Source: Xiphias gladius
Taxonomy: Eukaryota; Chordata; Actinopteri; Istiophoriformes; Xiphiidae
Direction of reading: 5' to 3'
Assembly (NCBI RefSeq): GCF_016859285.1
Contig: NC_053415.1
Location: forward strand, 27,376,001-27,440,000
Length of the DNA stretch: 64,000 nucleotides
The stretch's first letter is position 1, and each line of letters opens with the position of its first letter. A program made the position numbers and the translations under genes. Shown piece by piece: positions 14,425 to 56,759 of this stretch. Below the pieces are notes generated by a model. It searched no databases, was not told the DNA's origin, and saw only the letters and a program-made list of their open reading frames with translations.

Positions 14425-39728
<25,304 letters not shown>

Positions 39729-48599: not shown

Positions 48600-48779
48600 G
48601 TCCCGGGTCCCGAGTCCCGAGTCCGGACCCTGCGAAATGACCCGGAGGAGCTTCTCCCGAGCGAGCGCTCCTACCGGCGACAGCTCACGTCTGCACAGAT
48701 GTTCTTCCTCTCCGCGCTCGGTGGGATCCATCCACAGACCGGATCACCTTGTCTTCGGGACGCCTCCGCTGTGATCGGG
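48600..48779 (+). promoter_or_regulatory. Probable promoter and 5' non-coding exon of the zinc-ribbon gene
   Basis: A CpG-rich stretch (about 48590-48920) ends at a strong donor, gtaagt at 48780. Since the coding start at 50533 abuts an acceptor, this stretch is a good candidate for the 5' UTR exon. Its frame has a stop at 48772-48774, so it is unlikely to add coding sequence in that frame. A second candidate donor (gtaaga) lies near 50457. It sits head to head with med4, about 1.3 kb away. Confidence 0.45.
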
Positions 48780-49642: not shown

Positions 49643-50113
49643 CCTATGACACTGTACAGTTCCACAGCAGCAGGTCTCTGAAACCGTTTCAACACCAACT
49701 GGACGTTAGAACCTTTGTACCGCTGGTACACTGGCTCCGTTTTTAACCAGGTGTTCGGGTTAAAGAGCCACCTGAGGGAGTGTTACCAAGCGTGGGGCCC
49801 GTTCTCCCTTCCTTCAGTAAGGTCGCACACTAAGATAGGTGGTTCGATTTTGGTGTCCCAGAATCAGACTCTGTGACGCTACGATATCAGCTGCTTAGAA
49901 GTCCAAAAGGTCGGACAGGTTCCGACAGGTGAGCTCCGAAAGACGGTCCCGTACACCTGCTCACGCGGTGTGAGCCTCTGGTCATCCATCAGTACCTGTG
50001 ACCTTATCTAAAAAATGTGGGGGCGTCATGCTCGGTAACAGCTGTCAAACCAAAGTGGATGATAAAACCTTCAATACACGCGACAGCCAGATGGGTCGCA
50101 GGAGACGGCGTCC

Positions 50114-50225
50114 GGAGCCTGGAGCCTGGAGCCTGGAGCCCGGAGCCCGGAGCCCGGAGCCCGGAGCCCGGAGCCTGGAGCCAGGCGCCAGGCGCCAGGC
50201 GCCAGGCTCCAGGCGCCAGGCGCCT
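50114..50225 (+). repeat. GC-rich 7-bp minisatellite (16 units)
   Basis: Sixteen consecutive 7-bp units in perfect register: GGAGCCT and GGAGCCC ten times (last unit GGAGCCA), then mainly GGCGCCA with one GGCTCCA. The second half is close to the reverse complement of the first, so the tract can fold on itself. Confidence 0.95.
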
Positions 50226-50532
50226 CACGGGCAATACCACCTCACCTACATGTTATTCTTGGTGGCTATTTAAACAAACACTGGTTCCCACAGGGTTTGG
50301 GCCCACATCTCCATTAGAGCCCTCTTCCTGTAGAAGACGAACTAAAACACAAAACAAAGAAGTTGCAGCAGTTTGCATTGAAAGCCTTCACATCAGGCCA
50401 CTGCGGTGATAATGTTGACAAGGGCAACAAGCCCTGACTCCTGCCTTGACGGTGCGGGTAAGAAAACGAACTCTTTCCCCCCGACAACGCGGCGTGCGAC
50501 TCTCTAACCTTTATGTGTGTTTCCTCCTCCAG

Positions 50533-50727
50533 ATGCCCACTCAGAAAGAATGCCACGTTTGTAAGAAAAAAATTGGGGTAGCCAGCAAGACGTGCGGGCA
50601 CTGCGGTGCCAAGCAGCCGTACAAGCAAAAGCTGGAGAAGATAAAGAAAAAACTCGCCCACGGCTGGAAGGAGAGGCAGAAAAAAAACAGCAGCGTCAAC
50701 AAAGTATACGATGCCACAAATCTGCTG
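50533..50727 (+). CDS. Zinc-ribbon gene coding exon 1
   Basis: Residues 1-65. The ATG follows the splice acceptor cctccag with no base between, so an upstream non-coding exon must be spliced on. CHVC and CGHC are the two knuckles; the Lys-rich stretch KQKLEKIKKKLAHGWKERQK follows. Donor gtaggt after CTG, phase 0. Confidence 0.85.
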
Positions 50728-50813
50728 GTAGGTCCTTGGTTTTTTCAAATGGTAAAGTATCCACATCCCTACTGCTGACCTCGGCATCCATCCTGGGCTC
50801 ATTGTCAGTTACA

Positions 50814-50869
<56 letters not shown>

Positions 50870-53800
50870 GAACCGATCGGTGCCTGTTTACTGGTACTTG
50901 AGCCACGTGTCATTAACCACCACACTTACATTCAGTGAAGGCCGAGGGTCCAACTTGCGGGCACCGCAGGTTTTAGTTTGACCAAGGCGGGAGGCTACGT
51001 ATTAGTATGACGTGGGGCGAGTGGCGGCTGAAGAACAACCGCACACACCTGACAACGTCAGATGAGTCTTCATCACACCCTTTTCAGACTAATGGAAAAA
51101 TCCGGTTAAAGTCCAACGTTTACGACGACTATGCAAACAAAACACGAGAAAGTAGATTAGATGGGAATTGGAACAGAATAAAAGGATCTGCAGTATCCAC
51201 AATAACTGGACACCATTAACATAGGTCAGCTCTCTTACTACTGTGTGTATAAAAATGATAATAATACAATGTATGCTACCTTGTATGTAGTTTATATGGG
51301 CAAAGGTATGTTAGATGTGAATATTTACAAGAGAGCAGTATGTAGCTGCAGATGGGGTAAGAATATTAACGACGCAGTTCACGTAGGATGAGACTGAACT
51401 GACATTAGAATAATAAACTGAAAACTGAGTTTATGTGGGAAATGGGCCTGATGCCGTGAGTGACAGAGGGATGGTGAACGAGCCTCAACTGATTAATGGG
51501 CCGGACATAAATACACCGACCTATACACTGTGTATGAATTCATATTGTTTTAGTTTTAGCCGTCCACGGTGTTGCCTGGAATTGTCTTTTTTTTTTTTTT
51601 TTAATGCCACCTCCTGCCAACGGAAAGTGTGTCTTATTTAAAATGGCTACGTCTCCCCTGTAAGAGCAGCGGGACACAAATCTGTAGCGGGTTGTACCTG
51701 TACCTTCCGACCTGGTGTTTGTCCCGAACTGGAACTAAAAGAGGTTCAGACTCTACCGTTGCATGAGTAAAAGTAGTTCAACTGTTGTGGTTTTTAGTCA
51801 AGGATGGTGCTTCCAGTATGTGTCTGACAATGAGCATCTTCTTATTTTGAAAGTGCGGTGAGTCTGATGGGCAGATGTTTGTGTCAGAAACATTATTGTG
51901 AGATCGTCCCATGTTCAGGTGTCTGACGTCTTGCAGTGCTCCAGCGCTGCAGATACACAGAAGCCCGCTGCTTGTCTCTTGTCTCTCACTGAATTCGAAT
52001 GGTTTTCAGGTCTGGTTCAGTGCAGAGGTTTTGGGTTTAGTTTTTGACATCGCTACTAAGACTCTGTTTAGAATTACTCGACCGTGTCTCTGAAAGTACA
52101 GCTTATCTGTCTAGGTATCACAGCAAGACCTGGGGTGAAGCCTTTTATCGACCGACACAGTTTCCCGAGATTTTTTCAGCGCTCTGACCTTGGAGTTATC
52201 TGTCTCATTTTCATCATGATCTTGTGTCAATTTTGTTCCAGCTGCACAAGTGGGAACTTCTGGAGCGACATCCGATGCTCCTTCTCGCCAGGAGAACCAC
52301 GAACGGGTTTTTAGCTGAGTGCTTCTGTCCGTGGCAAATGAATGCACAAGATACCAAAGATGCCCTAGTCACGATAAAGAGGATTTATGAAAGTCTTCTC
52401 AACGGTAACGTACACACACTTTCCTCCCGCAGTTCCTTTACTGATGATCCTGCATCGACTTGAGGAGCATTTAGAAAGACAAACGGACGATGGGTTTTAC
52501 CAAGAGCGCAACATTTCAGACACAGGGAGCTTTACCGTCGTCTCACCGCAGTTACAGTGATTCATATCATGACAGCTTTAAACTTTGATTTCAAATTTAA
52601 TTCAGCAAATACAAATAACATCAGTAACGAGAAGAACAATTCAGTCAACCTTTGCGAAGGCCCCAAAGAGGAAAAGGGTTTAAGGGATAAGAAGAAGTAA
52701 GAATAAAGAATAAAAATAAATAAGATGGTTTGCAGGGTTGAGGTGGAGCAGGCAGATGAAGCCGTGGATCGTGCAAAACACATGCACATGATTATTAAAC
52801 GGAATATAAAGTTTGTTGCAACAGTGTGTGAATATAAATACACATTCCGGCCAGTGTACTGTGTTTATAGCTCCTTACACAGAGCCTGGTGCTTTCTGCA
52901 CAGGAAGACTTTTAGCCGACATTTAGTGACATGGCTCAGGATGAAAATGGAGACCTCGGCTTTGCTTAAGGTTGAAGGCCGCTACGGTGACCCGAGTTCT
53001 GAGTCTCGATTTGTTGGAGCCGAGCAGACGTCCTCGCTTTCTAATCCCGTGTCATCCACCGAATCGAAAGTGTCTGTCCCGGGGATTTCTGCCTCCGCCC
53101 CCACAACGAAGTACACGAATGGAATTTAGTTTGAAAATTCAACAGCAACACCTCCCTCACGTAGCGGCGTCACCATGGCTCTGAATAATCCTCAGGCCTC
53201 AACCTAAAGAGGCCACGAGACCTTTCCCTGGATAGAAAACCGCGTCACTGAGAACGTTTTAAAGTATTAACGCGTACGGACCAGACCGGCCAAGCGACCG
53301 CCATGGTCCACGAGGCCGCTTGTGCTCTAATGAAAGGATGAAATGTTTGTGTGTCTGTGGTGCGTGTTGTGTATATTTGAATGGAAGGTTCCACACCTGT
53401 TCTACGGGCATGTACCACCTAGAATTAACATTCATGCTCCATTTACAAACAGGGACACGATCCCTTGAGAGACAGTTTCACCTCTGGTAGGAAGCCGTTC
53501 TGTTTTGCCGTTTCTGCGATTGTTCCGCTTCCTTGAGGAATCTGTTCAGCTCCGTGTCATACTAGAACATAATGAGTGTGCCGGAGTAGACTCGGCCGTC
53601 TCACACCATTGGGTTCTTTCTTTGTTCCGTCACACTCTCTTCTCCCCCAAAGTGACGGTGCCAGCTGAGCCGGCAGCCGAGATGGGGGGGCCTCCGGCAG
53701 CGGACGGCGAGGAGCCTCCGGCCACTCAGACAGAGACTCCGCCACCGGACCAGCATGTCCTCCCGGCCAACACCGATTCCACCGCCGCACCTCTGCTCAG

Positions 53801-56218
53801 ACCAGAGTTGGACACCGAATTCACCTTTGTGCTCAGTCCCGGGTCCTCGTCCCTGGCCTCTCCTGTGCCCTCCTCCTCCCAGATCCCTCCTGATTCCTCC
53901 CCCTCCTCCCTGACCCGTCCTGTGTCCTCAGCCTCCCCAACCCCTCCAGTGTCCTCCTCCCTGGCTTCGCCCGTGTCATCAGCCCTTTCTGTTTCTTCCA
54001 AGCTGTCCTCTCCCGTGTCCACTCGGCTGGACACCCCTGACTCACTATCGTCCTCGTGGAAAAGAGCGCAAGCGAGAAGGAAACTAGACCCCAGCGGTAC
54101 GTGTGGGTTTATCAGCGTGTAAGTCAAAACTGTGTTGGACATTTTGCAAAGTGAAGCAGTTTCGTCCCACTCTTCTCCCAGCTGAATGAACAGGGCCTGT
54201 CTCTGTAGCTGAAGATGATATGACTTAGACCAATCAGATACGATCGTAGTGTGAAATCCCCTCTTTTCTGTCACTTGTTATTTAAAACACACTGGAATAG
54301 GAAAAATGAGGAGATGTGTGGATTTCATATATTAGAGTAGCTTTAGTCAGGAACCACTGCTCCTTCGACCTGGGCATGGAAGCATGGTGTTAAGACGGAC
54401 TTGGAGAAGATGTGAACCGATCCTTTAACAGAAAGGACGAGAACGCACCCCTGCGGTGTGTCACGGGGATTCCTCGGTCTCAGAAATGTTGTCCCGTCAT
54501 GTCACGCTACTCTAACATCAGTGGACAGGCTCCTGTTCAGCGCACGTTTGAGTTCCTGTGTTGTTTCTTTAGCTAAGACCTTCATGGCCTTGTCTAGAAA
54601 ATGTCCGTTGAACCTACAAATGATTAACGTCTCTCAATTCATTTCAGAGTGCCCCATTCACCAAGGCTCCAGCAGCTTCCCCTACAAACAGATACTGGGG
54701 GAAAGAATCAGGGAGGTTTGTAATCCAGAAACGCTTTTCCAATTACTAGAAGAGTCATAAAGCGATGATACGACCACCCCTGTGGAATCACACAGTATAA
54801 TGGCCCAAGAGAAATCATTCTAAGTCATGATTCTTTGTGTCAGCAGAGGGTTTTAGCTGGTCCATAGCCAAAGACTGCAGGTACCGCCGGAGAAAAGTCC
54901 CTGTGCCAATTGTTGAGTGATGGTGTGATTTCAAAATGTCAGTTCGGCTTGAGAACGATTCCTGTAAAGCTGGGTGTCGGTTTTCAACCACTCATTTTAC
55001 GAAGCAAAGTCTCGCTTCATAAATTCATAAGTTTTGAGTGTGAAACGTTATTGGTGACCATGGTAGTATAGCAGTTTGCCAGAATTAAAAAGTCAAGACC
55101 CACAGTTTCTACATCAGTATTTGTACATTAGTATTAATATATGTAAATAAACTGCCCCCTGATTTTTGAAAGCTTTATATGTGATGGAGTCAGTCCTCCT
55201 TTACAGTTCAGAAGCATGTACAGTATGTCAGTCTGCCTTCTATGCTTATTTGTTGAGAGAAAATGTGGTGACATTTTTTTTTTTCCCCTTTCTGTCTTCA
55301 CCAAGGGCCGTGCCGAGGTGCTGCTGCAGTGGTATCCCTGCTCTGGATGGTGTGTATGATACCTGACCTTTACTTTACTGTAGGTGGCCGAGCCGCGGGC
55401 TGCAGAGCTCGCAAGACAAAGACAAGCTCTTCGGCTTCAACCGCAGCTCGATCAGTGACGAGACGCGCGGCAGTTTGGCCAGTGCAGAAATTCTGTCGCT
55501 GCGGTTTAAATGCTAGTTTTCACTTCAGATTTTGATCAAATCCCAGCGGATTAAACTGTGACCGGATGGGGAAAGTTCCCTAAAGGTCCGGACTAGAAAT
55601 GGGTTGGTGTGGAATCCGACGCACGACCAGAGCAATGAAAGATGTGCTCCAGTCTGACACGTTGTGAGTGCAAGGCGTAGAATTTAAAGCGATCTCCTCA
55701 ACAGTTATTATGAAAAAGATTTCTCCTGCAAGGACCAGCAGCTGTACAAGCTTCATGCCTCACAACAGTATATTTACAAATGTGCTTGGGATTAAAACCT
55801 CTACCTAATATGACCTGCCTGGCTTCACGTACAGTATATATTGTGCTTTATGTGCATGTATTGTGGCAAATAAATCGCACTTTTAGAGGCTGACTTCGCT
55901 CCCGCACGTAAGAGTTCTATCTTAAAAAGCAGGCTGCTAAGTTCATATTTTAATGGAAGGTAAACACGAAATACATCATGTTTTTACTCGGGATGGCCAC
56001 TAGGCCCAGGTGTTCGGAGGATTCCTCGTCAAAGGCCTGAGTGCATGCACACCTGACGGTGTCCCAGTGTGTGTCATATAAGATAGGACGGTGCAGTGTC
56101 AGCATAGTACTGTTGAGAACGGTGTGACGGTAAATAATTGTTGTCGTCTCCCTTTGTGTGTTGCAGTGGGGCAAAGTGGAAAAACACCTGGGAGCCAAAA
56201 GAAAATATTCTCAGTTAA
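50533..56218 (+). CDS. Uncharacterised zinc-ribbon and chromodomain-like protein; 6 coding exons
   Basis: Exons 50533-50727, 52242-52404, 53653-54096, 54648-54715, 55306-55349 and 56167-56218 join to a 966-nt frame coding 321 residues; all introns are GT/AG and all phases agree. Residues 7-24 hold a CxxC-x10-CxxC zinc ribbon (Cys 7, 10, 21, 24), then a Lys-rich basic helix (28-52). Residues 66-119 form a compact, probably folded block (LHKWELLERHPMLLLARRTT, then AECFCPWQM). Residues 120-267 are Pro-, Ser- and Thr-rich and probably disordered. Residues about 278-319 resemble a chromodomain: YKQILGERIREGRAEVLLQW, then W309 and the TWEP signature (312-315). An extra CxxC (302, 305) sits between strand and helix. 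The N-terminal ribbon recalls the UPF0547 family; that link is by eye. A nuclear, nucleic-acid- or histone-related role is inference. I do not recognise a named gene. Confidence 0.82.
50817..50867 (+). repeat. (GT)n microsatellite
   Basis: About 25 GT units in intron 1 (between coding exons 1 and 2) of the zinc-ribbon gene. Confidence 0.97.
52242..52404 (+). CDS. Zinc-ribbon gene coding exon 2
   Basis: Residues 66-119 plus one base: LHKWELLERHPMLLLARRTT, then NGFLAECFCPWQMNAQDTKD and VTIKRIYESLLN. Acceptor ttccag, donor gtaacg, phase 1. Confidence 0.85.
53653..54096 (+). CDS. Zinc-ribbon gene coding exon 3 (Pro/Ser-rich)
   Basis: Residues 120-267. Low-complexity Pro, Ser and Thr sequence (for example PPATQTETPPPDQHV and repeats of SSLASPVSS), with WKRAQARRKLDPS near its end. 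It lies between acceptor cccaaag and donor gtacgt, both phase 1. The reading frame stays open on the opposite strand too, because of the repeated TCC/GGA codons. Confidence 0.75.
54648..54715 (+). CDS. Zinc-ribbon gene coding exon 4
   Basis: Residues 268-290: ECPIHQGSSSFPYKQILGER then IRE, the first strand of the chromodomain-like module. Acceptor atttcag, donor gtttgt (weak), phase 0 at the end. Confidence 0.78.
55306..55349 (+). CDS. Zinc-ribbon gene coding exon 5
   Basis: A 44-bp exon, residues 291-304 plus two bases: GRAEVLLQWYPCSG, the second chromo-like strand. Acceptor accaag, donor gtgtgt. Confidence 0.78.
56167..56218 (+). CDS. Zinc-ribbon gene coding exon 6 and stop
   Basis: The split codon TG+T gives Cys305, then GAKWKNTWEPKENILS and TAA at 56216-56218. 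The TWEP signature completes the chromodomain-like module, which is why this acceptor (gttgcag) is preferred over the nearer one at 55383. Confidence 0.8.
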
Positions 56219-56461: not shown

Positions 56462-56467
56462 AATAAA
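56462..56467 (+). promoter_or_regulatory. Polyadenylation signal of the zinc-ribbon gene
   Basis: AATAAA about 245 bp after the TAA stop, followed by TTTTTG and GT-rich sequence. Another AATAAA at 55869-55874 lies in the last intron and could serve a shorter transcript. Confidence 0.55.
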
Positions 56468-56759
56468 ACTTTTTGAAATAGCGTTTATCGTCACTGGCTG
56501 TGTACCGTCACGTGTACTTGATTGTTCTGATTGTTAACAGTAACCTTGTGATGAGAGCCCAGAATAACTGTCCTTTCACTAAAAAAAAAATAAAATAGAA
56601 TTTCTGTCATTCTTGTACCACAGGACATTTTACTGAGTGTTTCTGTACATCTGTCTACTTCATCTTGAGACCAGAGGGCAAATGAATTGTCACCTCGATG
56701 GAAAAAAAACTGCACTTTTAGTCTTTTGTTTTGTTTTCTCTTATTTCTTACTCATCAGT

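Follow-up and report, generated by a model that had tools for sequence, protein, structure and literature searches.

A 64,000-nucleotide window of the swordfish (Xiphias gladius) genome (RefSeq assembly GCF_016859285.1, contig NC_053415.1, positions 27,376,001 to 27,440,000, forward strand) contains, at window positions 50533 to 56218, a six-exon gene for a protein with a zinc ribbon at its N terminus and a chromodomain-like C terminus. On balance, we favor reading this gene as a teleost chromatin adaptor in which a Polycomb-CBX-type chromodomain has gained a C2HC zinc site and is joined to a transferable N-terminal effector module; we infer zinc binding, methyl-lysine reading, and the effector role from the sequence and from predicted structure. 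The arrangement of a ribbon and a zinc-modified chromodomain marks an unstudied gene of swordfish and other bony fishes. An initial annotation of this DNA had called the gene undescribed, which holds insofar as the literature searched contains no functional description of it, but database models of the family do exist under names such as FLO11-like, mucin-2-like, and involucrin-like. These flocculin, mucin, and involucrin names seem to derive from the low-complexity linker of the protein and to hide the family.

The six-exon gene is real. As proposed in the initial annotation, the six exons join in consistent phase, with GT-AG at every junction, to give 966 bases encoding 321 residues and a stop codon. 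A chance chain of exons is ruled out by an exact database model, P0001 (X. gladius, 348 amino acids, “flocculation protein FLO11-like isoform X3”), which consists of 27 residues followed by the 321 residues of the window, letter for letter.

To collect relatives, we used protein searches that find only proteins sharing exact words with the query; the first search scored the best 7988 candidates by shared words. In all, 50 proteins were collected, several of them isoforms of one gene, and 46 of these came from the first search at an E value of ≤10. By pattern match, 18 of the 50, from 15 teleost species, carry both the ribbon and a PCxxCG knuckle, and fish homologues with both ends, which the initial annotation had made the test of its proposal, therefore exist. 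The first search alone yielded 16 such proteins among its 46, from 14 species: Xiphias, Toxotes, Seriola, Melanotaenia, Acanthochromis, Sparus, Centropristis, the goby Knipowitschia, the carps and minnows Ctenopharyngodon, Phoxinus, Megalobrama, and Onychostoma, and the loaches Misgurnus and Paramisgurnus. All 48 collected proteins that carry an organism name are from teleosts, spanning a moray (N-terminal module only) and Prochilodus (chromodomain end only) up to percomorphs. We then compared 16 sequences, including that of the window, in an alignment (A2) in which some relatives cover the segments only partly. Identity to the window was 60 to 95% in exon 1 (14 relatives) and, among 15 relatives, 46 to 93% in exon 2, 11 to 71% in the linker, 43 to 87% in exon 4, and 68 to 97% in exons 5 and 6. 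Based on these segment identities, the protein has two constrained ends around a freer Ser/Pro-rich linker.

A CBX-type chromodomain with a putative zinc site

The description that best fits the C terminus is a derived chromodomain of CBX type, in a protein that is not itself a CBX protein. When the single sequence was compared with solved structures, CBX8 (3.7e-5) and CBX4 came first, at an E value of about 4e-5. An 11-sequence profile searched against PDB sequences placed CBX2 at the top (7.6e-7), followed by CBX8, CBX4, and CBX6; in the same search, the HP1-class protein CBX1 (1e-5) stood just ahead of CBX7 (1.3e-5), and Drosophila Polycomb scored 1.9e-4. The structure predicted for P0001 shows a chromo fold in line with the CBX-type match, at modest scores. 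The gathering score of Pfam Chromo (PF00385) was not reached (15.9 bits for the whole protein and 20.2 bits for the 59-residue end versus 25.1), and the earlier description of this end as chromodomain-like is borne out by the CBX2 match and the modeled fold but not by Pfam. We put the low Pfam score down to a 4-residue insert between W299 and W313.

The domain is encoded on the forward strand by exons 4, 5, and 6. Exon 4 (54648..54715), which some models skip, opens with ECPIH, contributing C269-x2-H272, and encodes the chromodomain N-terminal arm with the aromatic residue F278, as far as RIRE. Exon 5 (55306..55349; 44 bp) carries W299 and C302 and shares the codon of C305 with exon 6 (56167..56218), which supplies the chromodomain end (GAKWKNTWEPKENILS), including the TWEP motif at residues 312 to 315 noted previously, and the stop codon. 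In the initial annotation, the spread of one small domain over three exons was considered unusual. However, vertebrate CBX chromodomains are likewise distributed over three exons (PMC2784810). A domain derived from a CBX would be expected to show such a split, which more plausibly reflects CBX-type ancestry; the match concerns the number of exons. The exon borders are old among the fish relatives: the 3-5-6 joining of the window's exons recurs in a Chanodichthys model, and the 4-6 joining in three Labeo models.

Polycomb-class CBX proteins (CBX2, 4, 6, 7, and 8) provide the best sequence and fold matches, and the swordfish protein retains their RIRxG, F278, W299, and TWEPxENI. Unlike in CBX proteins, where the chromodomain is N-terminal, it lies at the C terminus and has a 4-residue CxxC insert, a C-x2-H arm, and a cysteine in place of the third aromatic residue; in addition, the CBX7_C/PcR box (PF17218) is not among the seven Pfam matches listed for the swordfish protein at E values up to 10, a list from which most matches above 0.1 were filtered out. 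In the CBX alignments, F278 and W299 occupy two positions that we take to form the methyl-lysine cage. At the third position, CBX proteins have a Trp; here, gap placement decides whether C302 or C305 aligns with it, and the three-aromatic cage is incomplete either way. F278 (Tyr in one sequence) and W299 are kept in all 16 sequences of A2, as is a further aromatic residue, W309.

The CxxC built into the chromodomain, C302/C305, had been recognized in the initial annotation and is invariant (16/16), but it makes up only half of the probable site, since C269 and H272 were overlooked. Including the window, C269 is present in all 16 aligned sequences and H272 in 15. The PCxxCG knuckle is present in 20 of the 50 proteins collected; the arm cysteine is found in every one of these, with a His no more than 3 residues away in 19. 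Seven further proteins (P0005, P0026, P0029, and P0041-P0044) have the arm without the knuckle; from their sequences, we attribute most of these to a skipped exon, read-through into an intron, or a different end. The simplest reading is that C269, H272, C302, and C305 probably form a C2HC zinc site linking the N-terminal arm of the chromodomain with the loop between strands 2 and 3, although the arm is modeled with low confidence in the predicted structure. Chromodomains are usually regarded as metal-free readers. Archaea offer another lineage that connects zinc chelation with a barrel of chromo-like type, the zinc-ribbon-derived chromatin proteins Cren7/Sul7 (PMC5906684); there, the barrel is described as arising from a zinc ribbon by metal loss, whereas the swordfish chromodomain appears to have gained a metal.

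The N-terminal module and its partners

Exon 1 (50533..50727, forward strand) encodes residues 1 to 65, comprising a zinc ribbon (C7-x2-C10-x10-C21-x2-C24), present as first described, and a basic helix; splice sites, translation, and conservation in homologues agree on this exon. Exon 2 (52242..52404, forward strand; residues 66 to 119) completes the module with a helix, a beta-hairpin, and another helix, which follow the ribbon part in the predicted model. The variable Ser/Pro-rich linker, modeled with low confidence, is encoded by exon 3 (53653..54096, forward strand; residues 120 to 267). The cysteine spacing of the ribbon resembles that of NZF/RanBP2-type fingers (TAB2, TRABID, Nup153, and RYBP), although structural matches to such fingers were weak and their E values not significant. 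A relationship to UPF0547 (PF10571) and similar short zinc ribbons, raised in the initial annotation, was not borne out at the family cut-off: 8 of 31 members of the swordfish protein's own family matched weakly at an E value of ≤0.1, the best with 21.5 bits (E value of 2.6e-4) versus 29, and UPF0547 was not among the Pfam matches of the window protein at E values up to 10. Also unlike UPF0547, the swordfish protein has about 90 conserved residues of helical/hairpin character behind the ribbon, for which no convincing family was listed in the Pfam scans.

The same module is joined to different sequences in other fishes. It stands ahead of C2H2 fingers in Thunnus, two Pampus species, Myripristis, and Solea solea; in a Scomber model, the finger-like sequence comes first. 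In Triplophysa, the module is combined with BESS, and in Gymnothorax with a coiled coil that matches CCDC106 below threshold. In three cyprinid proteins (P0047, P0048, and P0049), the N-terminal module and linker are tandemly duplicated, with a single chromodomain end behind them in P0048 and P0049. Conversely, in P0046 from Prochilodus magdalenae, the zinc-knuckle chromodomain occurs with another N-terminal part, which takes the place of the ribbon module. Some proteins with other module combinations may be faulty models, and P0015, with an amino-acid permease ahead of the module, probably is one. One ribbon cysteine is lost in the C2H2-finger protein P0050 (S. solea). All four are present in P0040 (Solea senegalensis), in which no fingers were called, but its ribbon core is altered. 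The remainder of the module may not need an intact ribbon to work. Because what follows the module is exchanged between proteins, we read the module as the effector and the remainder as the targeting part. This suggests that the N-terminal module is a constant, swappable effector and that the following part, chromodomain or fingers, would find the target by histone mark or DNA sequence.

FiNZ, KRAB, and SCAN are likewise N-terminal modules joined to C2H2 arrays in a vertebrate lineage, and FiNZ is a precedent for such a module on C2H2 finger genes in fish. FiNZ comprises 28 residues in one exon and is found in about 700 zebrafish genes (PMC10547256); unlike FiNZ, the swordfish module contains a zinc ribbon, covers about 119 residues in two exons, matches strongly at no swordfish locus but its own, and also heads a chromodomain protein.

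We also searched the swordfish genome with the N-terminal module; this search scores the best candidates only, so that its counts are lower bounds. The gene's own two exons matched strongly (1.2e-38 and 9.7e-31), and four weaker places were found, the best with an E value of 0.09. The latter value belongs to a short open stretch at C23:25802914-25803012 (CKKRINVSCKTCKACKAEQPHKLRL), which resembles a ribbon copy that has decayed or diverged. A 31-residue query from the chromodomain end matched one place, its own locus. As far as the search shows, the gene is single copy in swordfish, and a multicopy mobile family is unsupported. A captured viral gene is likewise unsupported: viral contigs gave 31 pattern matches, all of them unconfirmed.

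Gene start, alternative forms, and locus

The database model adds an upstream exon whose coding part (48699..48779, forward strand; donor ggg/GTAAGT) encodes 27 residues that share the frame of exon 1 and are identical to the N terminus of P0001. The start is covered by 14 relatives in A2, of which 8 open with the exon 1 Met and 6 have unlike residues ahead of it (compared by eye); for this reason, the sequence is probably 5′ untranslated rather than coding.

The alternative forms come from automatic gene models. P0002 (LOC120801837 isoform X2) corresponds exactly to the same 27 residues followed by the exon-4-skipping product. Similar products occur in Chanodichthys (P0022, over 36 residues) and in Gymnodraco (P0018, over 16 residues before diverging), while Labeo models omit exon 5. 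Both exon 4 and exon 5 have weak-looking donors (GTTTGT and GTGTGT, respectively), and skipping of 68 (exon 4) or 44 (exon 5) bases causes a frameshift that destroys the chromodomain.

A candidate AATAAA poly(A) signal lies at 56462..56467 on the forward strand, with further candidates at 56589 and 56963. A GGAGCC-rich repeat is located directly upstream of exon 1 (about 50110-50235), and a (GT)n run lies inside intron 1 (50815-50868). Upstream of the gene, on the minus strand at about 44.8 to 45.2 kb, sequence matching MED4 chains (E value of 4e-21) confirms med4 as the neighbor named earlier. Downstream, from about 59.1 kb, lies what we take to be itm2b, and minus-strand reading frames at 17643-18041 and 24571-25110 are presumably exons of sucla2, an expected neighbor of med4.

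Proposed mechanism, alternatives, and significance

In ordinary chromodomains, the N-terminal arm and the strand 2-3 loop close over the bound histone tail. In the swordfish protein, zinc would join the arm (C269 and H272) to the loop (C302 and C305) before histone binding, and the zinc site would substitute for the third cage aromatic residue, leaving F278 and W299 to receive the methyl-lysine. The NZF/RanBP2-like ribbon, the helices, and the beta-hairpin would act as an effector or partner-binding part, connected to the chromodomain by the flexible linker, and skipping of exon 4 or exon 5 would generate forms that keep the effector and lack the reader. We advance only tentatively the more specific proposal that the protein is a zinc-stapled methyl-lysine reader with altered mark choice or zinc-dependent binding, combined with a teleost effector that is coupled to either this reader or C2H2 arrays.

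The replacement of the third cage aromatic by a cysteine and the sub-threshold Pfam score would also fit a domain of chromodomain ancestry that has lost methyl-lysine reading and in which zinc merely stabilizes a protein-protein interface. Given that F278 (or Tyr) and W299 are retained throughout A2 and that W309 could complete the cage, we regard this as somewhat less probable than the stapled reader. The two ligand pairs might, moreover, not belong to one intramolecular site: C302/C305 could be one half of a site completed by a second molecule, as in a zinc hook, or serve a redox or disulfide function, with the chromodomain dimerizing. The spacing of the arm pair varies (C-x2-H or C-x-H), with Tyr replacing His once, while C302/C305 is invariant, as this explanation would predict, but C269 is just as invariant and accompanies every knuckle, and CPxH beside CxxCG provides the ligands required for a C2HC site. 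We therefore consider separate sites unlikely.

Captured chromodomains are known in general, and the domain could descend from a retroelement integrase or another mobile element rather than from a Polycomb-type CBX gene. Solved structures are probably poor in mobile-element chromodomains, which would bias the ranking toward host proteins, and CBX7 did not rank above CBX1. However, retroelement genes are as a rule intronless, the N-terminal module matched strongly only at its own two exons, and the viral-contig matches to the chromodomain end were not confirmed. Together with the CBX-like three-exon split (PMC2784810), these observations make a mobile origin the least probable of the alternatives.

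If the adaptor reading is correct, a metal site located at the histone-closing arm and cage, within a conserved family, would be a natural experiment on reader closing and mark choice. That the N-terminal module is found with a chromatin reader in some proteins and with DNA-binding finger arrays in others points toward a fish effector domain that has no name so far, and the same effector would then have two ways of locating genome sites, through a chromodomain reader or through C2H2 arrays.
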